Shown piece after piece: positions 14,405-50,589 of a DNA stretch of 64,000 bases. The notes beneath the pieces were generated by a model. It was not told the origin of the DNA and did not search any database. It saw nothing but the letters and a program-made list of their open reading frames with translations. The translations under genes and the position numbers were made by a program. How positions within the stretch are numbered: position 1 is the first letter of the stretch; each line of letters opens with the position of its first letter. Source of the stretch: Candidatus Pseudothioglobus singularis PS1 (GTDB lineage: Bacteria > Pseudomonadota > Gammaproteobacteria > PS1 > Pseudothioglobaceae); the NCBI RefSeq assembly GCF_001281385.1, contig NZ_CP006911.1, forward strand, positions 62,001 to 126,000. Reading direction: 5' to 3'.

Positions 14405-14897
14405 GCTTCCTATGAGTTATGATTCAAAATCTCAAAAAACTCTTGAAATTGTAAAGGCAATGGAAGATGCTTTGGGAGCTAACTCAAATGACATGGATCA
14501 ATATTTTCATAAAGAGTTTCGCTGGATGGGCAACCAGGGCTGCGGCATAAAAAACAACCTTGAGGAGTTTAGAAATAACTGGCAGCTGCCATTAAGGGCA
14601 GCCTTTACAGATCGGATATATAAGACGGACAAGTTTCTTGTGGATGGTGAATGGGCTTCCTGTTTTGGACACATCGATGCGCTTCATAGTGGTGAATTCA
14701 TGGGTATTAAGCCAACGAATCAGCGTGTGAAAATTCATTACACAGATTTTTGGGAAGTCAGAGATGGCCTCATTATTGATAATTGGGTTAATGTTGATTT
14801 TCCAAGCATATTGTCTCAACTCGGAATTGATGTTTTCAATGGAATGGGTTGGGAAACGTTTGATCGAGGTGAAGTCCAACCACCAAAACCTAATTAA
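14394..14897 (+). CDS. SnoaL/NTF2-like single-domain protein
   Basis: A 167-aa protein of the SnoaL-like NTF2 fold. It aligns by eye with the C-terminal half of the larger 351-aa protein at 16219. Both share a W/Y-M/Y-G start to the core ([14 protein letters not shown] versus MNWYGPSGIGSGRG), a DFWEVRDG / DFWRLEEG segment and the ending NWVxxDxxxxxxQLGIDVF / NQIGVDVL. It is the smallest of five paralogues in this regulon. NTF2-like proteins can be isomerases, dehydratases, cyclases or ligand-binding proteins, and nothing here fixes the reaction. It overlaps the ATPase gene and is followed 11 bases later by the HisD-like gene. Confidence 0.75.
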
Positions 14898-19065: not shown

Positions 19066-20034
19066 ATGAAAGGGTTTGATTCACAATATGCTAATTTTCC
19101 TGACTGGATTAATGGCATTACTCATGAAATTTGGGAAGAAAGGGGTATTGATAAGCTCCTTTACTTGTACTCAGATGATATTATTTTAAGGGCCCCACCC
19201 TCCCTTGTGATTGGAAATAAGACGGTTATTGATGCAACAAAAGCAACATTATCAGAATTTCCTGATCGTAAGTTATTAGGAGAAGATGTAATTTGGTCAG
19301 GGACACCGGAGACCGGTATGTTGTCCTCACATAGAATTATTTCTACAGCTTCTCATCTGGGAGATGGCTCATTTGGGAAGGCAACAGGTAAGAAGGTTGT
19401 TTTTAGAACAATCGCAGACTGTCATGCTATTAACAATCAAGTAAATGATGAATGGTTAATTCGAGATCAGGGCGCTATTGTTCGCCAGCTTGGAATGATG
19501 CCAAAGGATTTTGCAAGAGATCAAATAAATCTCGAAGGCGGCATAGAAAAATGCAACCATCCATTTAATGATTCTATGGACAAGAAAGGCCCCTACATCG
19601 GCAATGGGAATACGAATGCGTGGGGTGAAAAGTATGTCGATATACTTAATCGTATTATGAACGATGACGCTTCGGTTTATAGATCTGAATATGATCGTGG
19701 ATGTCATCTAGAATACCCAGGAGGGGTATGTGGTCATTCGTATGTGGATGCTGAAGAGTTTTGGAGAGGGCTACGCTCTTCTATGCCAAGCGCAGTTTTA
19801 ACAGTCGAACATCAAATTGGACGTGAAGATAGTCACCTCTCTCCCAGAGCTGCAGTGAGATGGAACCTTAAAGGCAAGCATGATGGTTGGGGTATTTTTG
19901 GTGAACCTACTGGTGCTGACTTATATGTAATGGGCGTTTCACATGCAGAATTTGGACCTTGGGGGCTTAGGAGAGAATATACACTCTTCGATGAAACAGC
20001 AATCTGGAAACAAATCATCATTAAGACAGGTTAA
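19066..20034 (+). CDS. SnoaL/NTF2-like double-domain protein, copy B (divergent)
   Basis: A 322-aa protein with two weakly similar NTF2-like halves. The first (about residues 15-150) has WEERGIDKLLYLYSDDIILRAP and ends WLIRDQGAIVRQLG. The second (about 185-320) has HLEYPGGVCGHSYVDAEEFWRGL. It is the most divergent of the group and lacks the WYGPxGIGS core of the other copies. It has its own Shine-Dalgarno (AGGAGAG) 11 bases after the LacI stop. The next gene starts 3 bases after its stop. A short polyketide-cyclase-like or hydratase-like role is possible, and no function is assigned. Confidence 0.68.
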   Translation: MKGFDSQYANFPDWINGITHEIWEERGIDKLLYLYSDDIILRAPPSLVIGNKTVIDATKATLSEFPDRKLLGEDVIWSGTPETGMLSSHRIISTASHLGDGSFGKATGKKVVFRTIADCHAINNQVNDEWLIRDQGAIVRQLGMMPKDFARDQINLEGGIEKCNHPFNDSMDKKGPYIGNGNTNAWGEKYVDILNRIMNDDASVYRSEYDRGCHLEYPGGVCGHSYVDAEEFWRGLRSSMPSAVLTVEHQIGREDSHLSPRAAVRWNLKGKHDGWGIFGEPTGADLYVMGVSHAEFGPWGLRREYTLFDETAIWKQIIIKTG

Positions 20035-23597: not shown

Positions 23598-24578
23598 ATG
23601 TCAATAAATGACCGTTCACTCTATTTCAAATATGCAAAGGCATTGAGCCATCCGGGAGACTTCTCTTCGAACATTGCGAGTTTTTACAGTGAGGATGCTG
23701 ACATTAATGTTGTCCACCCTTTTAATCAGCTGGCTGGTGCAGATGCCTACCTCAATGAATTTTTATTGCCACTTCAACACTCATTTAAAGGCCTTTATCG
23801 GCGAGATGACATCTTCATGGCTGGAGAATTTGAGGGACAAAATTGGATCAGTTCAACTGGTTATTATGTAGGGCAATTTGTAAGAGATTGGATTGGCCTT
23901 CAAGCCACGAAAACGCTTAGTTTTATTCGCTATGGTGAATTCCACCGTATTGAGAAAGGCCAAGCTGTTGAAAGCTATATCTATCTAGACATTCCAGAAC
24001 TGATGATTGCCTGTAATCAGTGGCCTTTGGATATGGGGCCAGGGCATTCGCGAGGATACACCGGGCTAATTCAAGGGCCTGCATCACGAGATGGCGTCCT
24101 CAAAAGTTATTCTGACCCTGTCGAAGGCCAGCAAAGCTATCAAATTGTGACTGATATGCTTGACAAATTAGCGACAAAGGATGAGGCGTGGCGTCCCTAT
24201 TGGCATAAGAATATGATGTGGTATGGGCCGGGTGCGTTTGGCTCTTTTATTGGCGTTGACGAGTTCGCTTCATTTCAGGTTCCATTTGAATCTCAGTTTG
24301 AAGGATGGTCAGGTGGAACAAAAAATAATGGCTTTACAAAACACTTTACAAGATTTGGCGAGGGTAATTACACCTGTTCAGGGGGCTGGCCATCCTTGAC
24401 CGGTATCAACGTCAAACCCTTCCTAGGACAAGGCCCAAGCAACGAGCGAGTTTTTATGCGTGTCTGTGATTGGTGGCGGCGTGAAAATGAGCTTTTAGTG
24501 GAAAATTGGGTGTTTGTCGATGTACCAAATCTTTTATTGCAGTTGGGATATGACCCACTCCCGAATTGGCAGAAGTAG
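23598..24578 (+). CDS. SnoaL/NTF2-like double-domain protein, copy C
   Basis: A 326-aa two-half NTF2-like protein closely related in plan to the copies at 16219 and 29645. Shared points are HPFNQLAGADAYLNEFLLPL in the first half, the junction YIYLDIPELMIACNQWP, the core MMWYGPGAFGSFIG in the second half and the ending NWVFVDVPNLLLQLGYDPL. It is the last gene of the operon that starts at 13346, 59 bases after the RraA-like gene. A large region with operators follows, so it is probably the operon end, although I see no strong terminator hairpin. Confidence 0.75.
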   Translation: MSINDRSLYFKYAKALSHPGDFSSNIASFYSEDADINVVHPFNQLAGADAYLNEFLLPLQHSFKGLYRRDDIFMAGEFEGQNWISSTGYYVGQFVRDWIGLQATKTLSFIRYGEFHRIEKGQAVESYIYLDIPELMIACNQWPLDMGPGHSRGYTGLIQGPASRDGVLKSYSDPVEGQQSYQIVTDMLDKLATKDEAWRPYWHKNMMWYGPGAFGSFIGVDEFASFQVPFESQFEGWSGGTKNNGFTKHFTRFGEGNYTCSGGWPSLTGINVKPFLGQGPSNERVFMRVCDWWRRENELLVENWVFVDVPNLLLQLGYDPLPNWQK

Positions 24579-29644: not shown

Positions 29645-30658
29645 ATGACTACAAATTTTCAAAACGAAAAAAACTTAATTCGTGATTATTACAAAGCACT
29701 AGATTCTGCGAATGGTAATGATATTACAAAAGTTTTACAAAACTATATTAGTGAGGATTATATTTGGAGAGGTTTCCATCCTTTTAATGAGATTTCGGAT
29801 GCCAAGGAGGTTTCTGAAATTTTCTGGCAGCCATTTCGTCATGCATTTAAAAATATTCAAAGACGTATGGATATTTTCATTGCAGGAAAAAATCAAATTG
29901 ACGGATTTGAATCTGTCTGGGTAATTTCTATGGGAAATCTTATGGGTCTATTTGATAATGAATGGCTTGGAATTCAGCCCTCGAGAAAAATGGCCTTCCT
30001 TCGTTACTGTGAGTTTAATAGAGTTGAAAATGGAAAAATTACTGAAACTGCAATGTTTTTTGATATTCCACATGTCATGCTGCAGGTTGGATTAAACCCC
30101 TTTCCACCTCAAACAGGTGCCCATCTTGTTCAGCCAGGACCGATGACTCATGAGGGTTTGTTGTACGAAGAGCAAAATATGGAAGAAGGTGAAAAGACAC
30201 TAGCTTCAATAAACTTTATGATTGAAGATATTAAAGGTTGGAAGCACACAGGAAAAATATCATTAGTTGATGAGCTTAGAGCTAGCTGGAACGAAAATAT
30301 GATTTGGTGGGGTCCTGCTGGTATTGGCTCAAGTTATACAATTGAAAGGTATGCTGAGCAGCACTCTGGTCCATTTAGGGCTAGTTTTAAGGATCGAATC
30401 TCTAATGGCCATCTTTGTAAACTTGCGGAAGGAAATTTTGGAGGTTTTTTTGGATGGCCTAACCTTACTCTAACTCCTACAGGTGGTTTTATGGGAATGC
30501 CTGCTTCGGAAAAACCTGGAGATATGAGGGTCATAGATATGTATCGTCGTGAAGGAGATAAACTCTCTGAAAATTGGATTTTCATTGATCTCTTGCATTT
30601 TTGGAATCAACAGGGTGTTGATATTTTAGATCGAATCAAAAAGACTCCAAGAACTTAA
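29645..30658 (+). CDS. SnoaL/NTF2-like double-domain protein, copy D
   Basis: A 337-aa two-half NTF2-like protein. The first half has YIWRGFHPFNEISDAKEVSE and the junction AMFFDIPHVMLQVGLNPFPP. The second has MIWWGPAGIGSSYTIERYAEQ and the ending NWIFIDLLHFWNQQGVDIL. It shares these points with the copies at 16219 and 23598. It follows the GMC gene by 2 bases and is closed by a strong terminator, so it is the last gene of the operon that starts at O4. Confidence 0.75.
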   Translation: MTTNFQNEKNLIRDYYKALDSANGNDITKVLQNYISEDYIWRGFHPFNEISDAKEVSEIFWQPFRHAFKNIQRRMDIFIAGKNQIDGFESVWVISMGNLMGLFDNEWLGIQPSRKMAFLRYCEFNRVENGKITETAMFFDIPHVMLQVGLNPFPPQTGAHLVQPGPMTHEGLLYEEQNMEEGEKTLASINFMIEDIKGWKHTGKISLVDELRASWNENMIWWGPAGIGSSYTIERYAEQHSGPFRASFKDRISNGHLCKLAEGNFGGFFGWPNLTLTPTGGFMGMPASEKPGDMRVIDMYRREGDKLSENWIFIDLLHFWNQQGVDILDRIKKTPRT

Positions 30659-30773: not shown

Positions 30774-32294
30774 ATGAGAAGAGGTCGAAGTAAAAGCGTT
30801 AGAGAGGTTACTAACTTTCAGCAGGCTCCCTATGGCCAAAAAAAGAACCCCTTTCAGCCGATGTCTATTTTTTCTGAGGATGAGATAGAAGCAATCCATC
30901 AGGCATCATTAAAGGTATTGTGTGATACTGGAATGGATATCCAGTCACCGCGCGCTGTCGAAATTCTCAAGAGAGAAGGCGCAATGATTGGTAGTGATGG
31001 CCGGCGCGTTAGGTTTGATCCTGACTTTGTGATGGAAAAAATTTCTACAACCCCTAGCGAATTTACTCTTCATGGAAGACACAAAGGCAGACACGTTCAT
31101 GTTGGTGGCCAATCAGTCATCAATACTCTAGTATCGAGTGCTCCCAATGTCTCCGATCTGGATAGAGGCCGGATCTTAGGTAACTTTGAAGATTATTCAA
31201 ACTTAATTAAGCTCGGAGAGATATTGAATACGGTTCATGCATTAGGAGGATACCCCGTTGAGCCTTGTGATTTAGATGTTAGTGAGCGTCATTTGCATGC
31301 AGTATCAGCAGCAGCTCGTTTATCTACAAAGCCATTATTTGGATACGCTATCGGCAGCGAGAGAATGTTAGATGCCATCGAAATTGTTAGAATTGGAAGA
31401 GGTATTGACAGAGAAACGCTTTTAAAAGAGCCATCAATTACGACAGTCGTCAATGCGAATTCTCCATTGGTTTACGACAAGGCACTCTTGGAGGGAGCCA
31501 TTGAAATGGCCGAACATAATCAGCCTGTTATCTATACCCCCTTCACTTTAGCAGGGGCTATGGCCCCAATTACTGTTGCAGGAGCACTCGTTCAGCAAAA
31601 TGCAGAGTCACTTGCTGGCCTTGCTTTTCATCAATGTGTCAACCCAGGAGCTCCAGCGATCTATGGCAGCTTCACATCAAACGTGGATATGAAGTCCGGC
31701 TCCCCCGCATTTGGCACACCTGAATATACTAAGGCGACAATAGCAAGTGGCCAACTCGCCAGAAAATATAAAATCCCTCTTCGCGCCTCAAATGCAAACG
31801 CCTCCAATGCGCCCGATGAGCAATCCGTTTATGAATCTCAGATGTCTTTGTGGGCATGCATGCTTGGACAAGTTAATTTTATTTTGCATGGGCACGGATG
31901 GATAGAGGGTGGGCTCTGTGCGTCATATGAGAAGGTCATCTTAGATGCAGAGATGAATCAAATGATGGAGGCATTTCTTATGCCATCGCTGGTTAATAAT
32001 GACACTCTTGGGGTTGAGGCTATTGCGGAAGTTGGCCCTGCCTCTCATTTTTTTGCAGCCCAGCAAACCCTAGATCGTTATGAAACTGAGCACTATAATC
32101 CAATGCTATCAGACTGGCGTAACTTTGAATCATGGAGAGATGCAGGATCCGAAACGGCTTCCCAAAGGGCTAATAAAATATGGAAGCAGCTTCTAGACGA
32201 TTATAAAGAGCCTAAGCTTGCTCCTGAGGTCGAGGAGGAGCTTTCAGGATTTGTAGATAGAAGAGTTTCTGAAGGCGGGGCAGCGCCACTGTAA
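30774..32294 (+). CDS. MttB-family methyltransferase, copy 2
   Basis: A 506-aa non-pyrrolysine MttB-superfamily protein; the frame has no in-frame stop. Typical segments are VVNANSPLVYDKALLEGA, YTPFTLAGAMAPITVAGAL, PAIYGSFTSNVDMKSGSPAFGTPE and RASNANASNAPDEQSVYES. It is clearly diverged from copy 1 (for example in the N-terminal 40 residues), so it may take a different amine. It shares its promoter block with copy 1 and with the DMGDH gene downstream. There is no convincing Shine-Dalgarno before its ATG. Confidence 0.85.
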   Translation: MRRGRSKSVREVTNFQQAPYGQKKNPFQPMSIFSEDEIEAIHQASLKVLCDTGMDIQSPRAVEILKREGAMIGSDGRRVRFDPDFVMEKISTTPSEFTLHGRHKGRHVHVGGQSVINTLVSSAPNVSDLDRGRILGNFEDYSNLIKLGEILNTVHALGGYPVEPCDLDVSERHLHAVSAAARLSTKPLFGYAIGSERMLDAIEIVRIGRGIDRETLLKEPSITTVVNANSPLVYDKALLEGAIEMAEHNQPVIYTPFTLAGAMAPITVAGALVQQNAESLAGLAFHQCVNPGAPAIYGSFTSNVDMKSGSPAFGTPEYTKATIASGQLARKYKIPLRASNANASNAPDEQSVYESQMSLWACMLGQVNFILHGHGWIEGGLCASYEKVILDAEMNQMMEAFLMPSLVNNDTLGVEAIAEVGPASHFFAAQQTLDRYETEHYNPMLSDWRNFESWRDAGSETASQRANKIWKQLLDDYKEPKLAPEVEEELSGFVDRRVSEGGAAPL

Positions 32295-38705: not shown

Positions 38706-40058
38706 TTATTTTTCTTTCCCTGCCATCAGTTCTTTCCAGCGCATATAGCTATTAACACCAAACCACATGAATGGTTTCGGCATCAGTTTTTTAGGTACTT
38801 CCTCGTCAACAAAGTCTGGCACTAGGCTATTGATAGTTCCAGTAATTTTTTCAGCCGTAATGATACCAATCGCAGTTCCTTTGGCAGTTCCAAGGCCATT
38901 TTGACAGCACGCAGAGTAGACGCCTTCATCAACCTCTCCCTGAGCAAAGACGTTGTTAAGACTCAGACAAAGACGACCTCCCCATGAGTAATCCATAGAT
39001 ACTTTATCAAGCATTGGAAAGCGAGCTTTAAATGATTCATTATGACTATTTGCAGCAGAATTCATAAATGAATCTGAGGCTTCCATGCTTGGATTATAAG
39101 ACCATCTGTTTCGAACCAGAATCCTATTGCCACCCATTCCAGAAATGCGCCTTACTGAAGAGCCCATAGCGTCAGCTGAAGTTAATCCCCAATCTTGAGT
39201 GCCGCCCAGCATATTAGACTCTTCAGAAGTTAACTCTCTTGATAGGGATGAGTAGGTAAAAATAGTCATTAGCCTATTCTGAAAGTATCCAAATTTTTCA
39301 ACCAATCCGTTGACTGCTAATATAACTTTTGGACTTGATATTGATCCAAGACTAGTTTTAGCCTTCCATACTTTTTGTCCATCATGCATTCCTTCCTCTT
39401 CAAGAGAAATGACCGGAGAGTTTTCATAAATCGTTGTATTGGGACTCTTAGAGACACCATCTGCTAGTGACTGGATGTAAAGGGCAGGTTGTAGCATCGC
39501 TGTACCTGGAGTCCATAGGCCATTTAGGTAGTAATCTATTCCGGTCAGGTCTTTCATTTCTTTAGCATCAAGCATCTTATAGCTTTCACTAGTCTTGTCT
39601 AGGTGCTTTGCATACTCTGTATTGAAATTCACTCCTTTTGGGGTTGCTGCTGCATTCGTTTTGCCAACAAGTTGTATCGCTTCAGCTGGCATTTCATATT
39701 CTTTTGAAGCACTCTTGGCAAATTCAATTGCAGAGCGATTAATCAGGGTTTGTTCACGATCTTTATCGAGGCTTCCTACGTAATCATCTGAAGCTAAGTT
39801 GTGAGGAAGATCAATCATAAAGCCTGAGTTTCTTCCTGCGGGGCCTTCACCAATTTCACAGGCTTCAAGTACAGCAATTTTTGCTTTATTATCGATTTGA
39901 ATTAAACGCCTAGCCGCAGAGAGGCCCGCAAAGCCTCCGCCAATAATCAAGTAGTCTGCGTTGAGATGATCTGAAAGCTTTGGATTAACCTTCCGCTCAG
40001 GAAGGATTTCTTTCCAGCCTGTATCACCAGGATTTTTGGGTAGCTTGATCTGATTCAT
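38706..40058 (-). CDS. FAD-dependent amine oxidoreductase (DAO family, PuuB-like)
   Basis: A 450-aa flavoprotein of the D-amino-acid/glycine-oxidase superfamily. The FAD site is ADYLIIGGGFAGLSAARRLI with a later GEGPAGRNSGFMIDLPHNL that matches the PuuB-type FAD-binding oxidoreductases (GRNGG/SGF motif). The C-terminus has CQNGLGTAKGTAIGIITAEKI. Such enzymes oxidise an amine to an aldehyde. The preceding gene of the operon (5 bases apart) is an aldehyde dehydrogenase, as in putrescine catabolism. The substrate here is more likely a methylated or secondary amine, given the neighbours, but this is inference. It is the last gene of the minus-strand operon that starts at 45520. Confidence 0.85.
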   Translation of the reverse strand: MNQIKLPKNPGDTGWKEILPERKVNPKLSDHLNADYLIIGGGFAGLSAARRLIQIDNKAKIAVLEACEIGEGPAGRNSGFMIDLPHNLASDDYVGSLDKDREQTLINRSAIEFAKSASKEYEMPAEAIQLVGKTNAAATPKGVNFNTEYAKHLDKTSESYKMLDAKEMKDLTGIDYYLNGLWTPGTAMLQPALYIQSLADGVSKSPNTTIYENSPVISLEEEGMHDGQKVWKAKTSLGSISSPKVILAVNGLVEKFGYFQNRLMTIFTYSSLSRELTSEESNMLGGTQDWGLTSADAMGSSVRRISGMGGNRILVRNRWSYNPSMEASDSFMNSAANSHNESFKARFPMLDKVSMDYSWGGRLCLSLNNVFAQGEVDEGVYSACCQNGLGTAKGTAIGIITAEKITGTINSLVPDFVDEEVPKKLMPKPFMWFGVNSYMRWKELMAGKEK

Positions 40059-40063
40059 TTATT

Positions 40064-41566
40064 TTAATCTACTGACTCTTCTGGAGCCCGATCTGAGAGA
40101 TCAATCCATATTGTCTTGAGCTCTGTATATTGGTCATGGGCATGAATGGAGTTATCCCTTCCGCCAAAACCTGAATGCTTGTACCCACCAAATGGCGTAC
40201 TCATATCTCCTTCACCATAACAATTAACAGTCACTGTGCCCGCCTTAATGGCTCGTGCAGCTCGGATTGCTTTCTTTCCATTTGAGGTAAAGACGCTGGC
40301 AGCTAATCCATATTCTGTATTGTTTGCAACAGCAATCGCCTCATCAAATGACTTCACGGTAATTACGGAGAGGATTGGACCAAAAATTTCCTCTTGTGCT
40401 ATTTTGGAGTCAGGATCAACCTGGTCAACAATAGTAGGAAGAACATAGTTTGGTTTTTCAGTTGTTCCGCCAACTAAAATGTTGTCTTGCTTGAGGTAGC
40501 TACAAACCTTTTTAAAGTGTTCATCATCCACTAAAGAGCCAAGATAATTTGATGGATCAAGGGGATCACCCGTCTTCCAATCTCTGAGGTGTGCAAGAAT
40601 CTTTTCAAGTAAAGCCTCTTTAATATTTTCTTGAACAATGAGCCTTGAGTTTGCTGAACAGTTCTCTCCCATGTTCCAAAAAGAGGCGTTCACAATATGC
40701 TCTGCAACTAGGTCTAAATCTTCAGCATCATCCAAAACAATTGCTGGATTTTTACCGCCACACTCAAGCACAATCTTTTTAAGATTTGAGTCTGCTGAAT
40801 AGCGCAGAAAACGTCTACCGGTCTCTGTTGATCCAGTAAATGAAACCATATCGATATCAGCATGAAGGCCAATCGGCTCACCAACATCTGGCCCCATCCC
40901 TGGTATGACATTGAGGACGCCTCTTGGGAGTCCTGCATCGATGGCCAATTCGGCCAGTCTAAGCGCGGTTAAGCTGGTTTGTTCTGCGGGTTTAACAATC
41001 ACAGAGTTCCCTGTAGCAAGTGCGGGCGCTATTTTCCAGGCCATCATGAGAAGCGGAAAGTTCCATGGCAGAACGCAGCCAACAACGCCAACCGGTTCAC
41101 GAACGATAACGGATAAGGCATCTTCTCCTGCTGGCGCAGTTTGATCATAAACCTTGTCAATGGCTTCTGCATGCCAAAGTAAACATTCAATCGTTTCTGG
41201 AAGGTCAATCGTTGCACAATCACGAACTGGTTTACCTGAGTCAACACTCTCCATAACGGCCAGCTCATTAAGATTTCTTTGTATCAGTTTAGAGAATTTA
41301 ATGAGCACCTTTTTTCTCTCACTTGGATGAAGTTTTGACCAGTGACCTTGATCAAATGCCTCCCTTGCTTTTATAACAGCGTGGTCTACATCATCTGCAT
41401 TACATGCAGCAACTTTGGCAATAACATTTCCAGTTGCAGGGTTTATAGTTTCAAATGTTTTTCCTGATTTTGAAGATTGGAATTGTCCATTAATGAACGC
41501 ATTGGTTGGAAAGCTAAGTGAATTTGCAATTGCACTATATTCCTCATGGGTTAGAAGATTTGACAT
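40064..41566 (-). CDS. Aldehyde dehydrogenase (NAD(P)-dependent), PuuC/BetB-like
   Basis: A 500-aa class 1/2-type aldehyde dehydrogenase. The oxyanion Asn lies in VLPWNFPLLM, the general base Glu in VLECGGKNPAIV, the catalytic Cys in NMGENCSANSRL, and the segment EEIFGPILSV is present. It oxidises an aldehyde to the acid and probably takes the product of the adjacent flavoprotein. The pair suggests amine to aldehyde to acid. Betaine aldehyde or gamma-aminobutyraldehyde-type substrates are both possible. The gap to the DapA-family gene upstream is zero bases. Confidence 0.9.
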   Translation of the reverse strand: MSNLLTHEEYSAIANSLSFPTNAFINGQFQSSKSGKTFETINPATGNVIAKVAACNADDVDHAVIKAREAFDQGHWSKLHPSERKKVLIKFSKLIQRNLNELAVMESVDSGKPVRDCATIDLPETIECLLWHAEAIDKVYDQTAPAGEDALSVIVREPVGVVGCVLPWNFPLLMMAWKIAPALATGNSVIVKPAEQTSLTALRLAELAIDAGLPRGVLNVIPGMGPDVGEPIGLHADIDMVSFTGSTETGRRFLRYSADSNLKKIVLECGGKNPAIVLDDAEDLDLVAEHIVNASFWNMGENCSANSRLIVQENIKEALLEKILAHLRDWKTGDPLDPSNYLGSLVDDEHFKKVCSYLKQDNILVGGTTEKPNYVLPTIVDQVDPDSKIAQEEIFGPILSVITVKSFDEAIAVANNTEYGLAASVFTSNGKKAIRAARAIKAGTVTVNCYGEGDMSTPFGGYKHSGFGGRDNSIHAHDQYTELKTIWIDLSDRAPEESVD

Positions 41567-42475
41567 TTAACTCCCCTCCTGTTTGATTTGATTGACAGTT
41601 TGATTCATGACTCGTATGACTTGCTCTAATTGGCGCTTATCGTCTTTATTCAATTTTTGAAGTGGTTTTCTTGGAGGTCCTACTGGAAGTCCTCTCATAA
41701 TTGATCCGTGCTTGATACATTGGATAAATTTTCCACCTTGCTCAAGAACTCTCATCAACGGCATCATTGCTGACATGATTCGCCTCCCTTTATCGAAGTC
41801 TCCCTCAACTCTACAAGCCTCGTATAGAGCAACATGAGCTTCAGGAGCGAAATTAGATCCAGCACAGACCCAACCACTGGCTCCCCAAGCAAAGAACTCT
41901 AAGGCTTGATCATCCATTCCGCAGCAAAGCTGGATATGAGGATAATCTCTTGCTAATAGGTGAAGTCTATTTATATCTCCACTGCTTTCTTTGATGGCGC
42001 AAAAGTTTGATGACCTACCCACCCTGTCAAGATATTCCTCACCCATCTTAGAGCCCATCCTTCCAGGATAGTTGTAGAGCATAATTGGAAGATCAGCTGC
42101 TCGGTCAATTGCTAGTGCATGAAGCGCATTTTCTCTCTCTGTAGGGAGCGCATAGGGAGGTGTTGCTATTAATATTCCGTCTGCTCCAATTTTGGCTGCC
42201 TCCTCTGCAAAGAAAACTGACTCTTCAGTTCGAATGGCACCAGTACCAACAATGCAGGGAACTCTATTATTAATGATATCCTTACTTATCTTCATTACCT
42301 GAAGGCGCTCTTTAGTATCCTGAGTATAGTACTCGCCAGTTGTTCCAGCAACGACAATCCCATGAACACCACTGTTAATGAGATCCTCAATCATAGGCTC
42401 GATGGCGTCAAAGTTTATTGCATGATTGTCATCATACGGTGTAAGTACTGGCGTATAAATTCCTTCAAACTTCAT
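41567..42475 (-). CDS. Dihydrodipicolinate synthase/N-acetylneuraminate lyase family protein
   Basis: A 302-aa Schiff-base aldolase-fold protein. The Schiff-base lysine is Lys162 in AIKESSGD, the Tyr in MLYNYPGRM is at about 134, and the carboxylate-binding loop is GTTGEYYT. It is not dapA itself: the context is a catabolic operon. Members include pyrroline-carboxylate deaminase, keto-deoxy-sugar-acid aldolases and others. Combined with the flavoprotein and aldehyde dehydrogenase in the operon it might fit an amino-acid or hydroxy-acid route, but the reaction cannot be fixed. It abuts the aldehyde dehydrogenase start. Confidence 0.85.
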   Translation of the reverse strand: MKFEGIYTPVLTPYDDNHAINFDAIEPMIEDLINSGVHGIVVAGTTGEYYTQDTKERLQVMKISKDIINNRVPCIVGTGAIRTEESVFFAEEAAKIGADGILIATPPYALPTERENALHALAIDRAADLPIMLYNYPGRMGSKMGEEYLDRVGRSSNFCAIKESSGDINRLHLLARDYPHIQLCCGMDDQALEFFAWGASGWVCAGSNFAPEAHVALYEACRVEGDFDKGRRIMSAMMPLMRVLEQGGKFIQCIKHGSIMRGLPVGPPRKPLQKLNKDDKRQLEQVIRVMNQTVNQIKQEGS

Positions 42476-42483
42476 ATGTTCTC

Positions 42484-43230
42484 CTAGAGGTTTGGCAAGC
42501 TAATTTTTGCCATCCTTCCCCCATCAATAGTATATACCTGTCCAGTTACAAAACTTGATTCTGAAGATGCAAGCCATGAAACTAATGAGGCAACTTCTTC
42601 TGTTTTACCTGTTCTATTAAGTGGGTGGATACTACCAATATTTTTTCTAAAATGGTCTGAATCAGGCATTGAGTTTATAAAGTCCTCATTTAGCTCTGTA
42701 TCTATCCATCCTGGAGCGACAGCATTACACCTTACCCCATCCTTTCCATGATCGACTGCGATGGAGCGTGTTAGTCCATGAAGCCCAGCCTTGCTAGAAC
42801 AATATGCCGCATGATTTGGATTAGCTCCTATCCCCTCAATTGAGCCGATATTAACAATACAGCCTTCAGATTCAATCAAAAAAGGCATAGCAAATTTACT
42901 CAATAAGAAAGGGGCAGTGAGATTAACCGATATTGTTTGATTCCAATCCTCAAGTGAAGTGTCCATCAACGAAGATTCTTTCATGATGCCAGCATTATTA
43001 ACTAATACGTCAATGCGACCATACTTTTTGACAATGACATCAATACTTTTAGAGCAGTCTTGTTCTTTGCTTAGATCAAACTTAAAAGAGTCAAATAAGT
43101 TTGATTGTCCTCTTTGAATGGCGCAAACGGTTGCTCCCTCTTCATGAAGACGCTCAGCGCAAGCAAGTCCAATGCCTTGAGTGGCTCCAGTAACAACAAC
43201 AATTTTATTAGTAAACCGCTTTTCCACCAT
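42484..43230 (-). CDS. SDR-family oxidoreductase (second of pair)
   Basis: A 248-aa classical SDR with VVTGATQGIGLACAERL, NNAG (LVNNAGIM), the catalytic Ser in VNIGSIEGIG and the YCSSKAGLHG active site. It ends SFVTGQVYTIDGGRMAKI. The start overlaps the upstream SDR by 23 bases, so the two are translated together. Two adjacent SDRs could act on the two stereoisomers of one alcohol, as described for other substrates, but nothing shows this directly. Confidence 0.86.
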   Translation of the reverse strand: MVEKRFTNKIVVVTGATQGIGLACAERLHEEGATVCAIQRGQSNLFDSFKFDLSKEQDCSKSIDVIVKKYGRIDVLVNNAGIMKESSLMDTSLEDWNQTISVNLTAPFLLSKFAMPFLIESEGCIVNIGSIEGIGANPNHAAYCSSKAGLHGLTRSIAVDHGKDGVRCNAVAPGWIDTELNEDFINSMPDSDHFRKNIGSIHPLNRTGKTEEVASLVSWLASSESSFVTGQVYTIDGGRMAKISLPNL

Positions 43231-43975
43231 TAATCTCCACTAGTGATCCACAAATATAACGCGCCTCATCTGAACTTAAAAAAGACACCACATTAGCAAT
43301 CTCCTCTGGCTCAGCTATATGACCTATCGGGACAGATTGATTCAATTCTTCAATAGCATCATCTGGATTTAAACCTCTTATTTCAAAACCTGTTCTGAGC
43401 ATTGGTGTATTAACTTCGTTAGGACATACTGCATTGATTCGAATATTTTGATGAGCATGATCTCTGCCTAGGCACTTCGTCATTGCTGCTAATGCTGCCT
43501 TGGTAGTGCAGTAGATCAGATGATTTGGTCCTGGATTAATGCCCCAACAGGATGATACGTTGACAATGGATCCACCTCCAGCTTCTGCCATCAAGGGGAT
43601 CGCAGCTCTAATGAGTCTAAACGGCGCTTCAACATTGATCTTCATTGATAGATCATAATCCTCATCAGAGGTCTGTGTGATGTCACCACGACGCATAAGA
43701 CCAGCATTGTTGATGAGAATATCAATGCTTCCAAGTTTTTTTTGAACCTCATTTGCAAGACGATCACAATAATTTTGATCCAACAGGTCTCCAGGAAATG
43801 CCATTGCCTTTCCATTGCCGTGATTGATTTCATGAACAAGTTTGTTAGCCTGTTCTTCGTCCTTATCAGCAATGGCTAGAGTTAAACCTTGCCGTGAATA
43901 TTTATTTACTATGGACTTTCCAATACCACCAGTGGCACCAGTCACAAGAACAACATTTGATTTATCTTTGACCAT
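43208..43975 (-). CDS. SDR-family oxidoreductase (first of pair)
   Basis: A 255-aa classical SDR with LVTGATGGIGKSIVNKYS, LINNAGLMRRG, VNVSSCWGINPGPNH and the YCTTKAALAAM active site. The sequence SSDEARYICGSLVEINGGKAVY closes the chain. It overlaps the next SDR by 23 bases and starts 3 bases after the mttB-3 stop, so it is in the same operon. NAD versus NADP preference is not clear; DKDEEQ after beta-2 suggests NAD. Confidence 0.86.
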   Translation of the reverse strand: MVKDKSNVVLVTGATGGIGKSIVNKYSRQGLTLAIADKDEEQANKLVHEINHGNGKAMAFPGDLLDQNYCDRLANEVQKKLGSIDILINNAGLMRRGDITQTSDEDYDLSMKINVEAPFRLIRAAIPLMAEAGGGSIVNVSSCWGINPGPNHLIYCTTKAALAAMTKCLGRDHAHQNIRINAVCPNEVNTPMLRTGFEIRGLNPDDAIEELNQSVPIGHIAEPEEIANVVSFLSSDEARYICGSLVEINGGKAVY

Positions 43976-43978
43976 AGT

Positions 43979-45520
43979 TTAATGCTCCTGATTAAGTGCT
44001 TCCATTTTGGGAATTGTAGTTTCCCTTTTAGCGATGTAATCCAAGAGTTCTTCATCTTTAGCTTGATCCAGCTTAGGCTCTTGATAATCTTCAAGTAGTT
44101 TTTTTGCCCCTTCAAGTCCTCTTTGAATTGTATCTTTACTTCCATCAGCCTGCCATTGCTCAACAGAATTATTGTCAAATAGTTTAGGCATAAAAAAGGC
44201 CCTCTGAAAATTTTCCATGGTGTGTTGATGGCCAAGGTAATGACCACCAGGACCCACATCTCTAATGGCAGCCAGCCCCTCTTCAAAATCATCCCATCTC
44301 ACTCCTTCAGCCATTCTATAGCCCATTTCGCATTGCTCAGCATCAACCACAAATTTTGCCATTGAGCAATGCATTCCAGCCTCATTCCATCCCGCAGAAT
44401 GCCATATATAGTTAGCGCCAGATAACAGGACAGCCATCATTGTTGATGCACTTTCATAGCCTGATTGTGCATCAAAAACTTTTGATCCACCAAGCGTATT
44501 AGAGCTTCTCCAAGGGACTTTATAGTGTCTTGCCATTTGTCCAATCATAAAATTCATGAGAGAAATTTCAGGCGTTCCAGCCATAGGTGCCCCAGATTGC
44601 ATTGATACCGTAGCTAAGTAATGGCCATAAATTGCTGGCGCTCCTTTGCGTATGACTTGAGTATAGGCGAGAGCAGATAGAGCTTCTGCATTGACCTGAG
44701 CTACCGTTGGTGCAACACTTGCGGGAGTGTTGGCGCCACCAAGAACGAAAGGAGAGCAGAGAACAGGTTGATTGTGTGCTGAAAAAACCCTTAAAGCTGA
44801 GAGCATGGTTTGATCCCAAACTAGTGGGGAGTTTCCATTAATGTTGCCGGTGACTACTGGGTGCGTATCAATGAATTTTTCACCAAAGAGAATCTTACAC
44901 ATCTCAATTACATCCTCAGCATTCTTACCACTACTGGTCATACCCATAAAGGTCTTATCGGAGTGCTTCATTGATGAATAAGTTATCCTCAAATGTCTAT
45001 GAGAAATTGCATGATCCATGGGTTCTACGATGTGATGGGCACTCGAATGAATGGCAGGGAGCATATGAGACAGCTTATGAAAGTTAGCAAGATCATCCAG
45101 GGTAGGCATGCGCCTTTTATTTTCAAGATCAGTCAGAAACGGAGCACCTGTCATTGGAACAAAAATAGAGTTATTTCCACCAATTTCAAGTGACTTCTCT
45201 GGATCTCGGGCATGCATTGTGATGCTCTCTGGAATTGATTTGATGAGTTCTCGAATTAGACCTCTATCAAAGCGCACCCTCTCCCCCTCTACACTGGCTC
45301 CAGCTTCCTTCCAGTGTTCTAGTGCAATAGGATCATGAAATTCTACGCCAACTTCCTCCAGAATAGACAGCGAAGCGTCATCCATTTTCTCAATCTGCTC
45401 TTCATTCATTGGCTCTGTAAGAGGGATATTTCGACGTAAAGTCGGCAGCATTTCAATTTTGACTTTTAGGCGGTCACTTCTTCGAGCCGCTCTTCCAAGT
45501 CTTTCAGTAGAATTGGGCAT
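43979..45520 (-). CDS. MttB-family methyltransferase, copy 3
   Basis: A 513-aa non-pyrrolysine MttB-superfamily protein with no in-frame stop. Markers are NINGNSPLVWDQTMLSAL, CSPFVLGGANTPASVAPTV, AIYGHYLATVSMQSGAPMAG and RSSNTLGGSKVFDAQSG. It is about as distant from copies 1 and 2 as they are from each other, by eye. It starts a minus-strand operon that continues with two SDRs, a DapA-family lyase, an aldehyde dehydrogenase and a flavoprotein. It does not have the AACTTGAGTT promoter block of the other two copies, so it is controlled differently. Confidence 0.85.
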   Translation of the reverse strand: MPNSTERLGRAARRSDRLKVKIEMLPTLRRNIPLTEPMNEEQIEKMDDASLSILEEVGVEFHDPIALEHWKEAGASVEGERVRFDRGLIRELIKSIPESITMHARDPEKSLEIGGNNSIFVPMTGAPFLTDLENKRRMPTLDDLANFHKLSHMLPAIHSSAHHIVEPMDHAISHRHLRITYSSMKHSDKTFMGMTSSGKNAEDVIEMCKILFGEKFIDTHPVVTGNINGNSPLVWDQTMLSALRVFSAHNQPVLCSPFVLGGANTPASVAPTVAQVNAEALSALAYTQVIRKGAPAIYGHYLATVSMQSGAPMAGTPEISLMNFMIGQMARHYKVPWRSSNTLGGSKVFDAQSGYESASTMMAVLLSGANYIWHSAGWNEAGMHCSMAKFVVDAEQCEMGYRMAEGVRWDDFEEGLAAIRDVGPGGHYLGHQHTMENFQRAFFMPKLFDNNSVEQWQADGSKDTIQRGLEGAKKLLEDYQEPKLDQAKDEELLDYIAKRETTIPKMEALNQEH

Positions 45521-45687
45521 ATTAACTTCTTTCTATTTAATGAAAGTATCCTAGATTAATTAATTACTTAATGCAACATTTTTTTTCATGGAAACTTGAA
45601 AAATACTATATTTAGATATGTGCTTATATTCTTGATAAATCAATAATAAAGAGTAAAATTTAAATTTTTGAAAAATCAAATAAAATC
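45521..45687. other. Divergent promoter region between mttB-3 and the ALDH operon
   Basis: This 167-bp AT-rich gap must hold two divergent promoters. On the plus strand TTGAAA at 45596-45601 could be a -35 element, but no well-placed -10 is clear. I see no LacI-type operator and no AACTTGAGTT block. No RNA gene or terminator is evident. Confidence 0.35.
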
Positions 45688-47136
45688 ATGTCTAATCTTT
45701 CTAACAACTACATTGCGGGCGACTGGGTAAAAGGCGCAAGTTCAATTTCTAATATCAATCCATCGAATACAAACGATGTTATTGGAGAATTTGCTCAAGC
45801 CAGTAACTCACAATTAGAGGATGCTCTCAATTCGGCTCAGGTTGCCCAAAGACAATGGGCTGCAACAGGCCTTGAGCAGCGTCAAGCTGTATTGATGAAG
45901 ATTGGTGAAGAGATGATGGCGCGAAGCGCTGAACTTGGGGAGCTGCTATCCAGAGAGGAAGGTAAGCCAGTTGCTGAAGGCAAAGGAGAAGTATATAGGG
46001 CAGGTCAATTTTTTACTTACTATGCAGCAGAGGTCCTAAGGCAGGGTGGTGATACTGCGGATTCAGTCAGACCTAATATTGAAATTGATGTTCGCAGAGA
46101 GCCAATGGGAACAGTCGCAATCATCTCGCCATGGAACTTTCCAACAGCAACAGCGAGCTGGAAAATTGCTCCAGCACTAGCATTTGGTAATGCTGTTATT
46201 TGGAAGCCTGCGAACTTAACACCAGCAAGTGCAGTAGCATTAACTGAAATCATTTCCAAGCAAGATATTCCAAAGGGTTTGTTTAATTTAGTAATGGGCT
46301 CAGGTTCATCAATTGGACAGTCGTTGGCTGAAAGTCCAAAAGTGCATGCAATCAGTTTTACTGGATCTTATGATGTGGGTCGTCAGATTGCAGGCGCAGC
46401 CGCTAAAAATTTAACAAAGTTTCAGTTAGAGTTAGGCTCTAAAAACCCACTTGTGGTAATGGATGATGCTGATATGGATGTCGCTGTTGCGGCTGCTACT
46501 GGAGGTGCTTTTGGTAGTACTGGTCAAAAATGTACCGCGTCTTCTAGACTAGTTGTTCATGCCTCCATTCATGATGAGTTTGTAGAACGCATGAGCCAAT
46601 CCACTTCAGCTCTTAAGGTCGGTGACGCGCTTCAAGAAGGCACTCAAATTGGTCCAGCCGCAAGTCAACAGCAACTTGATTCCAACCTCAAATATATGGC
46701 TTTAGCAAAAGAAGAGGGCTGTGAAGTGGTCTGTGGAGGTAACAAGCTTGAGCTTGATAATCCTGGTTTTTATATGCAGCCAGCATTATTAATTGGGGGA
46801 AACAACTCTATGAGAGTTAATCGTGAGGAGCTTTTTGCACCGATGGCTTGCGTCATCAAAGTTGCAGATTATGAAGAGGCATTATCGGTTGCAAATGACA
46901 CAGAATTTGGACTTGTTTCAGGAATTATTACTCAGTCTCTCTCAAGAGCAAGTCACTTTAGAAGGAATGCAGAAAGTGGCTGCGTTATGGTGAACTTACC
47001 GACAGCAGGTACGGACTATCATGTCCCATTTGGAGGTAGAAAAAATTCAAGCTTTGGCCCTAGAGAGCAAGGAACTTATGCCAAAGAGCTTTATACTCAA
47101 GTTAAGACTTCTTATATTTCTAGCGGAAATCCATAA
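45688..47136 (+). CDS. Aldehyde dehydrogenase (NAD(P)-dependent)
   Basis: A 482-aa aldehyde dehydrogenase. The oxyanion Asn is in ISPWNFPTATAS, the base Glu in FQLELGSKNPLVV, and the nucleophile Cys in TGQKCTASSRL. The FGLVSGIITQS and GGRKNSSFGPREQG stretches resemble the alpha-ketoglutaric-semialdehyde/2,5-dioxovalerate dehydrogenase group more than betaine aldehyde dehydrogenases. Its stop overlaps the ATG of the M19-family gene, so the two are coupled. The substrate is unknown. Confidence 0.9.
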   Translation: MSNLSNNYIAGDWVKGASSISNINPSNTNDVIGEFAQASNSQLEDALNSAQVAQRQWAATGLEQRQAVLMKIGEEMMARSAELGELLSREEGKPVAEGKGEVYRAGQFFTYYAAEVLRQGGDTADSVRPNIEIDVRREPMGTVAIISPWNFPTATASWKIAPALAFGNAVIWKPANLTPASAVALTEIISKQDIPKGLFNLVMGSGSSIGQSLAESPKVHAISFTGSYDVGRQIAGAAAKNLTKFQLELGSKNPLVVMDDADMDVAVAAATGGAFGSTGQKCTASSRLVVHASIHDEFVERMSQSTSALKVGDALQEGTQIGPAASQQQLDSNLKYMALAKEEGCEVVCGGNKLELDNPGFYMQPALLIGGNNSMRVNREELFAPMACVIKVADYEEALSVANDTEFGLVSGIITQSLSRASHFRRNAESGCVMVNLPTAGTDYHVPFGGRKNSSFGPREQGTYAKELYTQVKTSYISSGNP

Positions 47137-48122
47137 TGGCGCACCCTTCACTATTTATTGATGCACTTCAATACAATAATTGGAGTGAGGAGATATTTAA
47201 GCAAATTAACCAAGGCGGTTTGAGTGCTGTTCACGTTACAATTTGTTATCACGAAGACTTTCAGGAGATGGTCCAAAATGTTATTGACTGGAACCGTCGT
47301 TTTGAGGACTACTCAAATTTAATTTTTCTTGGCCGAACTGCAGCTGATGTCAGAAAGGCTCAAAAAGAAGGAAGAACAGCAATCTTTTTTGGCTATCAAA
47401 ACTGCTCCCCTATCGAAGATAATATTGGCCTCGTTGAAGTATGTCATCAACTAGGTGCAAGGTTTATGCAGTTAACCTATAACAATCAAAGTCTTTTAGG
47501 AACTGGCTGTTATGAAGAAAACGACCCAGGAATTACGAGAATGGGTAAACAGGTTATTAAAGAAATGAATAGGGTTGGACTAGTGGTCGATATGAGTCAT
47601 TCCTCAGAGAAATCTACCCTAGAAGCTATAGAAATATCAGAGCGTCCTATTGCAATCACGCATGCAAATCCAACGTTCTGGCATCCTGCGCTGAGAAATA
47701 AGTCAAACGAAGTTCTAAAGGCGCTTGGAGAAAGTAATAGTATGCTTGGTTTTTCTGTCTACCCACACCACCTTAAGGATGGTTCAGACTGCACATTAGA
47801 AAGTTTTTGTAATATGATTGCCGATACTGCAGAAATTATGGGGATGAATAATATCGGTATTGGAACTGACCTATGTCAAAATCAACCTGATAGCGTTGTA
47901 GAGTGGATGCGAAATGGCACATGGACTAATGATCGTGACTTCGGTGAAGGTTCGGCCAGTTTTGCAGGATTTCCAGATCAGCCCGAGTGGTTTCGAGATA
48001 ATCGTGATTTTGTAAACATTTCAAATGGTTTAAAGTCCATAGGTTTTTCTGAAAATGACGTTGAATTGGTCATGGGTAAAAACTGGTTAAATTTTTTCGA
48101 CGCATCTTTTGAATCTTTATAA
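47136..48122 (+). CDS. M19 (membrane dipeptidase) family protein, atypical
   Basis: A 328-aa protein of the renal-dipeptidase-like M19 family. Recognisable parts are the bridging-Glu region QNCSPIEDNIG, the zinc His in VVDMSHSS and in ITHANPTFWHP, and the Asp in GIGTDLCQN. The first metal motif of active M19 enzymes, His-x-Asp near the N-terminus, is missing: the sequence there is LFIDALQYNNW. A binuclear zinc site may therefore be incomplete, and the protein may hydrolyse something other than dipeptides. It is coupled to the aldehyde dehydrogenase and followed by two genes of unknown function. Confidence 0.75.
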   Translation: MAHPSLFIDALQYNNWSEEIFKQINQGGLSAVHVTICYHEDFQEMVQNVIDWNRRFEDYSNLIFLGRTAADVRKAQKEGRTAIFFGYQNCSPIEDNIGLVEVCHQLGARFMQLTYNNQSLLGTGCYEENDPGITRMGKQVIKEMNRVGLVVDMSHSSEKSTLEAIEISERPIAITHANPTFWHPALRNKSNEVLKALGESNSMLGFSVYPHHLKDGSDCTLESFCNMIADTAEIMGMNNIGIGTDLCQNQPDSVVEWMRNGTWTNDRDFGEGSASFAGFPDQPEWFRDNRDFVNISNGLKSIGFSENDVELVMGKNWLNFFDASFESL

Positions 48123-48130
48123 TATTTATT

Positions 48131-49873
48131 ATGTCTAGCGAAACTGTATTAATAGAGAATGAATCTGATTTTATGAGATCACCTGAAACGGTTATGCGTC
48201 TCGATAGAATGGGCTCATCTTTTCCTACCCGGTTGAGCTTTATGCGAACTTTGATTAGGCGAATGTCACGGGAGAATTGGAAATTTGAGAGAACGCGCCG
48301 TGAAGTTGATAAGGATGGATATGGCTTAAGCGTTTATTCGGTTACTACTCCAAATAGAACCTACTCATTGGTTGGTTTTACACAAGAAATACCAGCTGAC
48401 ATGAGAACGGATAGAGTTATCGCAGAAGTTTGGGATGCAACCTTTAACCTTTTTGATGGTGTGCCAACACAAGAGGATATAGATTATTTGGCACAAAATA
48501 CACCTAAGCAAGAAGGCGGTCGTTACAGACCAAGCGAACTTGCTTTGGCAAGGGCCAATAAAAGCTTAAGAGTATTTAAAAATGCTGTTGATTCATTATC
48601 AAAAGGTCAACAACCAGATCTAGATTTATTAACTTCTGTAGGTTATTTAATGAGAACTTCAGCAGTTTATGGAAGCGGTAAGTTTGGGTGTGCAGATAGA
48701 GCTAAAATTGCTGATCGAGAAGAATGCAAAGCACCATTTCAAATAGAGTTACTCACTGTTTACTTAATACGTTGGTTTACGATTGACTCAGTTGAAGAGC
48801 TTGCAAAAGAAAAGGGTGGAAAAAAAGCTGTTAAATTTGATCAGACTACTCGTCAATTCATTGGAGTTGGAAATGCAACGGGTTTGGGTATGGCTCCATT
48901 TTTACTTAAGCACCCAGCATTAATTCATAACTGGGTTGTCGCAAAAGAAACAGCATTGGCAAGAGTCAGGTCCATTGAAACTCCAATTGTTGGAACTCTT
49001 GAGGTTTTCTTAAAGTCACTTCTTCAGGTTAGCCAGCATGTCGATGAATGGAATGTTGCAGATGAAGTTCAGTCTGCAAGAATTTCTCGTTTAACAGATG
49101 AAATTCAAGCTCTGAGAATGTGGTGTGAAAATGAATCAAATATATATAGACCATATCCATGGAATGGAATCTATCAGTATGTCGAGGATAACTTTTCTTT
49201 GGAATGCCAAGAAATGATTGTCTCCTTAATTATTGAGCCACATGGAACACTTGTTGATGACCTTGCAGATACAATGTCTTCAACTGTAATCCCTAAATTT
49301 CAGGCTGATATGACTTTATCTCACTTGAAAGAAGTTGTTGCTGATGCATATAAGTGGGCGACAACTATTGACTTCTCATTAGAAGAATCCCAGCACCATT
49401 TTTGGTACTATTCTGAAGATAAATTAGAGCCCAGATTCGGTTCTAAAGGAGTCGATGATGGGGTTGATCAAGAAATGCCACTAGCTATTGGGCGCGATGT
49501 TCATGATTTGAATGAGGTATTGCAAGGCATTGACGATGATATGTCTATTGGAGAATTTGCAATGATGCACCCTCAGTTTAGGCATATTATTCGAAGGGTT
49601 CAAAATACTTTTGAAAGGCCTTACTCAGAAGTTCAAGATAATTTACTAAGTGAATCTATGAGGCCTCTTGATTTATTACGATTCAAATTAGCATTCTTTG
49701 GAGCGTCAAAGTTTGATCCAAAGTCAGATTTATGGACTCGAATTTCAATGTACCAAGGAGCACCAATGCCCGACCAGTTGTCGGAGCCAAACCATGATTG
49801 TTGGTCATTTCCTATAGCTGGAAAACCACAGTCTTATCCGTGTATAAATTGCACATGTCGAAAAACGGTTTAA
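48131..49873 (+). CDS. Uncharacterised conserved protein, 580 aa
   Basis: I do not recognise the fold. The 580-aa protein is soluble, without a signal peptide or membrane segment, rich in Arg/Glu near the N-terminus (FMRTLIRRMSRENWKFERTRR) and largely helical by eye. The C-terminus ends with a Cys cluster, SYPCINCTCRKTV, that could bind a metal or iron-sulfur centre. Another possible Cys site is KFGCADRAKIADREECKAP near residue 185. It overlaps the DUF3726 gene by 19 bases, suggesting the two products act together. It belongs to the ALDH/M19 operon. I can give no function. Confidence 0.7.
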   Translation: MSSETVLIENESDFMRSPETVMRLDRMGSSFPTRLSFMRTLIRRMSRENWKFERTRREVDKDGYGLSVYSVTTPNRTYSLVGFTQEIPADMRTDRVIAEVWDATFNLFDGVPTQEDIDYLAQNTPKQEGGRYRPSELALARANKSLRVFKNAVDSLSKGQQPDLDLLTSVGYLMRTSAVYGSGKFGCADRAKIADREECKAPFQIELLTVYLIRWFTIDSVEELAKEKGGKKAVKFDQTTRQFIGVGNATGLGMAPFLLKHPALIHNWVVAKETALARVRSIETPIVGTLEVFLKSLLQVSQHVDEWNVADEVQSARISRLTDEIQALRMWCENESNIYRPYPWNGIYQYVEDNFSLECQEMIVSLIIEPHGTLVDDLADTMSSTVIPKFQADMTLSHLKEVVADAYKWATTIDFSLEESQHHFWYYSEDKLEPRFGSKGVDDGVDQEMPLAIGRDVHDLNEVLQGIDDDMSIGEFAMMHPQFRHIIRRVQNTFERPYSEVQDNLLSESMRPLDLLRFKLAFFGASKFDPKSDLWTRISMYQGAPMPDQLSEPNHDCWSFPIAGKPQSYPCINCTCRKTV

Positions 49874-50589
49874 CGATTTCCTTAAACGAAGTTCTTTTTT
49901 ATTTTACTCGTGCTGGGTTTGGTGTTAATGCATCCATCGGAGTTTCAGAAGACTTTGCCAGAAGCAATATTTGGATTGCACAAAATGGTTTTGATCCCTC
50001 AGAGTGCAGCCTTCTGGCACTTGATAATTTAGATAGCCAAACCAGTAGCCTCTCTATTCAGTTCGAAAAGACCAGCGATGGAAGTCACCTTTTTTGCCCT
50101 GAAGACAAAGTTTTGTCAGCAATTGAGGCTTCTGTAAGCTGCGTAGATTGGCTCGAGTTTAATGGCCTTGATGGAGACTTAAAATTAACTAATGTAGACT
50201 CCCCATTATTAGTTGTTTCTGCCCTTGGTGCAAACCAATGCACTGGTATTCAAGCGTCATGGACAGACAAAAGCAATAATCATTATGAGGTTAATCTAAA
50301 AGATGATATTGAGTGGGAAATTATTAGCTCATCAGAGGCTCCCATTGAGCTTAGCAACTATGCTGATATTCACATTTCTGCTTTTGATGTTAATAATAAA
50401 ACTTCAATAAGTAATGGCAAACTAAAGACACTTAATATTGCTGAAGAAAGGCTGAAAACGCTTAATAATGGCGTTAATGTGGGTGATAAGTGGCCTGAAA
50501 TCTATGAATATTTCTCTCGTTGCTTAGTGAAATCTAGCGCTGAATCGAGAGCTTCAGGTGCGGGCGCTGGTTTAGTAGATACAGATTAA
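49855..50589 (+). CDS. DUF3726-family protein
   Basis: A 244-aa protein read from the ATG at 49855, whose start MSKNGLTISLNEVLFYFTRA is the usual DUF3726 beginning. An upstream ATG at 49798 gives a longer protein without homologous sequence and is unlikely. The N-terminal pattern SLNEVxxxxxRAGxGxxxxxGVSEDFARSxxWxA fits the family, whose function is unknown. It overlaps the 580-aa gene and ends the operon, converging on sdaA with only one base between the stop codons. Confidence 0.72.
   Translation: MSKNGLTISLNEVLFYFTRAGFGVNASIGVSEDFARSNIWIAQNGFDPSECSLLALDNLDSQTSSLSIQFEKTSDGSHLFCPEDKVLSAIEASVSCVDWLEFNGLDGDLKLTNVDSPLLVVSALGANQCTGIQASWTDKSNNHYEVNLKDDIEWEIISSSEAPIELSNYADIHISAFDVNNKTSISNGKLKTLNIAEERLKTLNNGVNVGDKWPEIYEYFSRCLVKSSAESRASGAGAGLVDTD

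Follow-up and report, generated by a model that had tools for sequence, protein, structure and literature searches.

Which compound is handled by four genes that lie side by side on the forward strand of the window, as we call the whole 64-kb stretch of DNA analysed here, and what do their least informative members contribute? The window belongs to a genome that consists of a single contig of 1.71 Mb. The ORF coordinates bore out the place, the tight packing and the two overlaps that the first-pass annotation had described, and Pfam confirmed its assignments. The genes encode an aldehyde dehydrogenase (ALDH; 45688-47136; PF00171, Aldedh, E=3e-157), an M19-like hydrolase with an apparently rebuilt active site (47136-48122; PF01244, Peptidase_M19, E=1e-70), a 580-aa protein without any Pfam match, here called P580 (48131-49873), and a DUF3726 protein (49855-50589; PF12525, 23.6 bits at a cut-off of 22.1). 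The ALDH and M19 genes share one base (TAATG), and the P580 and DUF3726 genes overlap by 19 bases. The start of the DUF3726 gene is most likely the ATG at 49855, since the family start 'M..SLNE' aligns there; for the same reason a TTG at 49798 was disfavoured. The operon diverges, as had been claimed, from mttB-3 (43979-45520, reverse strand; PF06253) across an intergenic region of 167 bp (45521-45687). The best promoter-like match in this region was at 45632-45659 (forward strand), and the scanned region contained no more such matches than its shuffles. No LysR, BCCT or Ldh gene adjoins the operon within the window. We read the four genes, with a probability of roughly 0.6, as an operon for the catabolism of homarine or as a near variant of such an operon.

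Gene linkage was assessed in 86 loci (from six plasmids and 80 genomes), a sample biased towards the best matches, and the denominators for the neighbouring genes differ (78, 75 or 56 loci). By an automatic rule, DUF3726 directly followed P580 in 79 of the 86 loci, and in several of the seven automatic misses a DUF3726 ORF was recognisable by eye. The M19 gene lay upstream of P580 on the same strand in 69/78 loci. An ALDH gene was present in 36/75, an Ldh_2 gene in 19/56, LysR in 24/56 and a BCCT carrier in 15/56; a full-size Ldh_2 gene was often the next gene. P580 and DUF3726 formed one fused gene in four genomes, namely Mesorhizobium 131-2-1 (814 aa) and those of loci L054, L065 and L086 (766 aa in L086). 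On the basis of the linkage counts and the fusions M19, P580 and DUF3726 are taken as the core, and gene order and fusion mark P580 and DUF3726 as a conserved pair with P580 as the predicted large subunit.

Relatives of P580 were found on 168 plasmids and on at least 581 stretches of named genomes, and the loci span Alpha- and Gammaproteobacteria as well as metagenome-assembled genomes (MAGs) of Deltaproteobacteria and Acidimicrobiales; viral contigs yielded one weak P580 fragment only. P580 occurs in every one of the 12 genomes sampled from the SUP05-related genus to which the window belongs, and in both sampled genomes of the neighbouring genus g274. A distant copy occurs in one further genus, and none was found in the remaining sampled genera of the family. 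In one roseobacter family, P580 was present in 91 of 198 sampled species. Close relatives keep the order ALDH-M19-P580-DUF3726, in some cases with Ldh_2 next. The roseobacter loci comprise five structural genes and a LysR gene, the window four and no regulator. The conserved neighbourhood that had been proposed for roseobacters and other marine bacteria is thus found, and it extends far beyond the roseobacters; scattered genes without linkage, which would speak against a single operon, were not seen in the set of loci. Pseudomonas sp. MPC6 (L108, 755-11414) has the operon in two portions that diverge from each other, and a Rieske ring-hydroxylating oxygenase subunit is encoded nearby.

The core can also be read as a general module, in which the P580-DUF3726-M19 triad serves several substrates, homarine being one. 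In Sinorhizobium, Variovorax and Alloyangia, distant paralogues with 26-30% identity retain all three genes, here with other transporters and an IclR regulator and in some cases with gabT/SSADH, and many close loci are without ALDH and Ldh. We regard this as a serious possibility, at somewhat less than even odds; it is compatible with the homarine reading and does not contradict it for the close group. The paralogue operons of L107 (8947-12393), L109 (8941-12437) and L110 (8956-12358) have the order IclR, P580-like, DUF3726-like and M19, and adjoin ABC or tripartite transporter genes, with GABA-pathway genes in two of the three. Their P580-like and DUF3726-like genes are annotated as hypothetical proteins.

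The genes around the operon in other genomes point towards methylated amines. They include BCCT or betaine ABC carriers, mttB and, frequently, RidA, which belongs to an imine/enamine hydrolase family. Genes of a heterotetrameric oxidase adjoin the operon in Ruegeria TM1040, Phaeobacter, Shimia and a further alphaproteobacterium (L045); in the first two, the set of four oxidase genes is accompanied by an AraC-type regulator. Across these four genomes the oxidase shares 71-74% identity with its counterparts at gmaS-mgs clusters, the beta subunit of TM1040 and Phaeobacter 72-73%; identity to a sarcosine oxidase beside glyA/sdaA is about 51%. In the tree the neighbouring oxidases group with the genes of gmaS-mgs and dmm-tmaR clusters (clade support 100/99). 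Because of these identities and this support, the neighbouring oxidase is assigned, by homology and context, as N-methylglutamate dehydrogenase (Mgd). With genome size and copy number assumed, about 0.4 Mgd-type neighbours would be expected by chance, and at least 4 were seen. The genome of the window has an Mgd-clade set at about 1,092 kb, unlinked to the operon; an assignment of this SoxBDAG-like set as sarcosine oxidase was rejected, as the tree places it in the Mgd clade. The Ldh_2 genes of this genome are likewise unlinked to the operon. The whole genome is devoid of a BCCT gene, and uptake must therefore use another carrier.

The betaine transporters, mttB and Mgd support the link to quaternary or methylated amines made in the first-pass annotation. 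The homarine reading itself rests on the betaine transporters and Mgd genes that adjoin the operon elsewhere, together with the reported participation of Mgd in homarine catabolism (PMC13390433). Counting against it are the missing ALDH in about half of the loci, the confinement of Mgd adjacency to a minority, the lack of any cofactor or oxygenase signature in P580, and the lack of an adjacent LysR, BCCT or Ldh gene in the window and of any BCCT gene in the genome.

A substrate shared with mttB in methylamine metabolism had been suggested from the divergent arrangement. In six genus or family relatives for which enough of the flank was read, mttB stands divergent to the operon; overall, it is a close neighbour in 6/56 loci, two of them from SUP05/Thioglobus. 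This lends weak support to a shared substrate, and the links to N-methylglutamate and betaines favour homarine over simple methylamines. The target of the operon could instead be a different betaine or cyclic N-methyl amine, such as a proline- or hydroxyproline-type betaine that is also the substrate of the mttB-3 cluster. Such a route would also pass through imine/enamine intermediates, betaine transporters would suit any betaine, and the mttB-3 cluster contains DapA-like, ALDH and pipecolate-oxidase-like genes. Most loci are without mttB, however, and the adjacent Mgd-clade genes indicate N-methylglutamate, which is no obvious product of such betaines; we therefore consider this alternative unlikely. 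The mttB-3 cluster (38706-45520, reverse strand), in which the pipecolate-oxidase-like gene encodes an FAD protein, also includes two SDRs and resembles a hydroxyproline/betaine route. Three non-pyrrolysine mttB homologues are present in the window (9226-10767, 30774-32294 and 43979-45520). Five related proteins that look like NTF2/SnoaL by eye (14394-14897, 16219-17274, 19066-20034, 23598-24578 and 29645-30658) are scattered among the amine genes, and four of them are of double length.

The ALDH (PF00171, 524 bits) has the catalytic Cys (GQKCTAS) and Glu (ELGSKNP). Its closest NCBIfam models are alpha-ketoglutarate semialdehyde and 2,5-dioxovalerate dehydrogenase, both below their cut-offs, and no NCBIfam equivalog cut-off was reached. 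The M19-like protein matches PF01244 over most of its length (238.6 bits). It was compared with renal dipeptidase, whose residues are numbered here as in the human enzyme. The positions of His20 and Asp22 were placed via a conserved N-terminal Asp, as the phmmer alignment ends short of there. H198, H219, R230 and D288 are kept as H155, H176, R187 and D245, whereas H20, D22, E125 and H152 are replaced by L11, Y13, Q88 and Y115. The binuclear metal ligands of the His-x-Asp motif and the bridging Glu are thus missing, as is the substrate His of the M19 renal dipeptidases. In essentially all of 74 homologues the HxD and bridging-Glu positions hold L, Y (or F) and Q. Three paralogues likewise retain Gln88 and Tyr115. 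The nearest relative with a solved structure, 2i5g (an amidohydrolase according to its deposition), aligns end to end and similarly has neither HxD nor the bridging Glu. The label 'atypical M19' was right, and the missing metal-site residues in the copies examined explain it: by sequence, the active site is rebuilt and is not that of a dipeptidase. A generic peptide or amide salvage operon, with M19 as dipeptidase and the ALDH and the pair processing the released product, would agree with the Pfam match to M19. It is nevertheless very unlikely, given that the four canonical residues are replaced in essentially all 74 copies and in the paralogues and that, where neighbourhoods were inspected, the carriers linked to the operon are for betaine or other small molecules, none being annotated for peptides.

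For DUF3726, listed before as of no known function, the PF12525 match stands (at E <= 0.1 it is shared by 58 of 59 aligned homologues), and its character could be narrowed to an Ldh_2 fold. The single-chain model was confident (pLDDT 92.3), and its 27 best Foldseek matches were all Ldh_2 proteins (best E=2.7e-6, probability 1.00). VIA gave Z 11.1-14.9 over 178-210 residues for Ldh_2 and Z 2.8 for the next unrelated fold; the fourteen best Ldh_2 entries reached Z 12.8-14.9 over 199-210 residues at 3.4-4.0 Å. An hhalign comparison with an Ldh profile, built mostly from proteins of the same operon loci, matched the N-terminal 61 columns (probability 68%, E=4.9e-5), and the P580 control was null (probability 0.1%). 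Two DUF3726 paralogues matched PF02615 weakly and co-linearly, below the cut-off (E=0.005 and 0.025); the window protein had no PF02615 match in Pfam. While the fold and the N-terminal profile are shared with Ldh_2 dehydrogenases, DUF3726 has 6-12% identity to them and is about 100 residues shorter (244 aa against about 335), with an incomplete NAD(P)H domain. The catalytic SHG motif was not found, no His stands at the aligned position, and a conserved C-terminal tail (SR..GAGAG..D.D) is added. DUF3726 is accordingly modelled as a shortened Ldh_2-fold protein, which we read as an Ldh_2 descendant that has degenerated catalytically and that probably lends its tail to the partner protein. Many Ldh_2 enzymes have the catalytic His in NSxHFG; the Ldh_2 proteins of the operon loci (L020, 14394-15401, in the alignment) have NSYNCG and may likewise be atypical. 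No paper on DUF3726 or PA5396 was found in the searchable literature.

P580 had no convincing match in Pfam (75 members searched), NCBIfam, PDB sequences or PDB folds, and a weak NCBIfam hit to NAC (E=0.006) was set aside as a chance match. The single-chain model was confident (pLDDT 91.4). Foldseek found nothing below 0.001 among solved folds, and the best VIA match, phage Mu Mom at Z 5.5, was not convincing; a weak or absent match of this kind does not prove a fold new. A glycine-rich motif, G(V/I)GN(A/S)TGLGMAPF (residues 245-257; 48863-48901, forward strand), is conserved. The positions conserved throughout the superfamily are rich in Arg, with 14 such residues, one His and no Cys, which suggests binding of a carboxylate or of a phosphate-bearing cofactor rather than of metal; no cofactor or oxygenase signature was detected in P580. 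The C-terminal CINCTC that had been proposed to coordinate metal is present in the window protein, which ends in PCINCTCRKTV (Cys tail codons 49841-49858, forward strand). The CxxCxC tail is shared with L026 and six further relatives within the genus, and other members of the genus end without it, as do most P580 proteins. Since only these few close relatives have it, the model falls below pLDDT 50 at its end and its third Cys codon runs into the start ATG of DUF3726, the tail cannot carry the function of the family. A group of close relatives does keep CxxCxC, but that P580 is a metal-binding protein or metallochaperone is extremely improbable, since the rest of the family is without the tail and conserves no Cys, and the tail is disordered in the model and lies over the start of the next gene.

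The route that we infer, in its substrate and in every reaction, would begin with a betaine of the pyridinium or cyclic N-methyl type, for which homarine (N-methylpicolinate) is the likeliest candidate. The P580/DUF3726 pair may bind the ring carboxylate and open or prime the ring. The ALDH would oxidise a five-carbon semialdehyde, and the rebuilt M19 protein would cleave an N-acyl or enamine intermediate. A full-size Ldh_2 enzyme, encoded by the next gene in relatives and by an unlinked one in the genome of the window, could convert an N-methyl imine to N-methylglutamate, from which Mgd would finally form glutamate. Turning homarine into N-methylglutamate requires the removal of one ring carbon and the oxidation of a five-carbon semialdehyde; an ALDH nearest, below cut-off, to alpha-ketoglutarate semialdehyde dehydrogenases and an Ldh_2 imine reductase would fit this. 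In the trigonelline pathway of Acinetobacter (tgnABCDE), an N-methylpyridinium carboxylate is opened by a flavin two-component monooxygenase, followed by an ALDH and amide hydrolysis. The proposed route resembles it in these steps, but P580 and DUF3726 match no flavin two-component monooxygenase family. Within the Ldh_2 family, DpkA acts as a reductase on a cyclic imino acid and produces N-methyl amino acids (PMC8070496). We tentatively propose, as an idea that may well prove wrong, that P580 and DUF3726 represent a new two-subunit, metal-independent class of enzyme that opens the N-methylpyridinium ring. Its large subunit would have a new fold, and its small subunit would be a dehydrogenase derivative without catalytic residues that lends its conserved tail to the active site of the partner.

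The homarine gene set of Ferrer-Gonzalez and co-workers is said to be named homABCDER. The roseobacter loci, with five structural genes and LysR, would fit such a set, and Mgd is common to both; the window operon differs in having no regulator and no linked Ldh or transporter gene. That the operon is the one published as hom (Ferrer-Gonzalez et al., 2026, Nat Microbiol 11:1531; cited in PMC13390433) is likewise our inference. If this is confirmed, the operon itself is already known; new here, as far as the searchable literature shows, would be the descent of DUF3726 from Ldh_2, the rebuilt active site of M19 and a Cys tail specific to one lineage. With the Ldh_2 fold and the rebuilt site, two annotations that had said little become concrete hypotheses about biochemistry. 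Homarine is an abundant nitrogen compound of marine plankton and is quickly used by marine bacteria. Fast drawdown of homarine has been described for Ruegeria pomeroyi (PMC12817926). If the homarine reading is true, the ring-opening step becomes testable, and heterotrophic relatives of SUP05 would have a defined food source.
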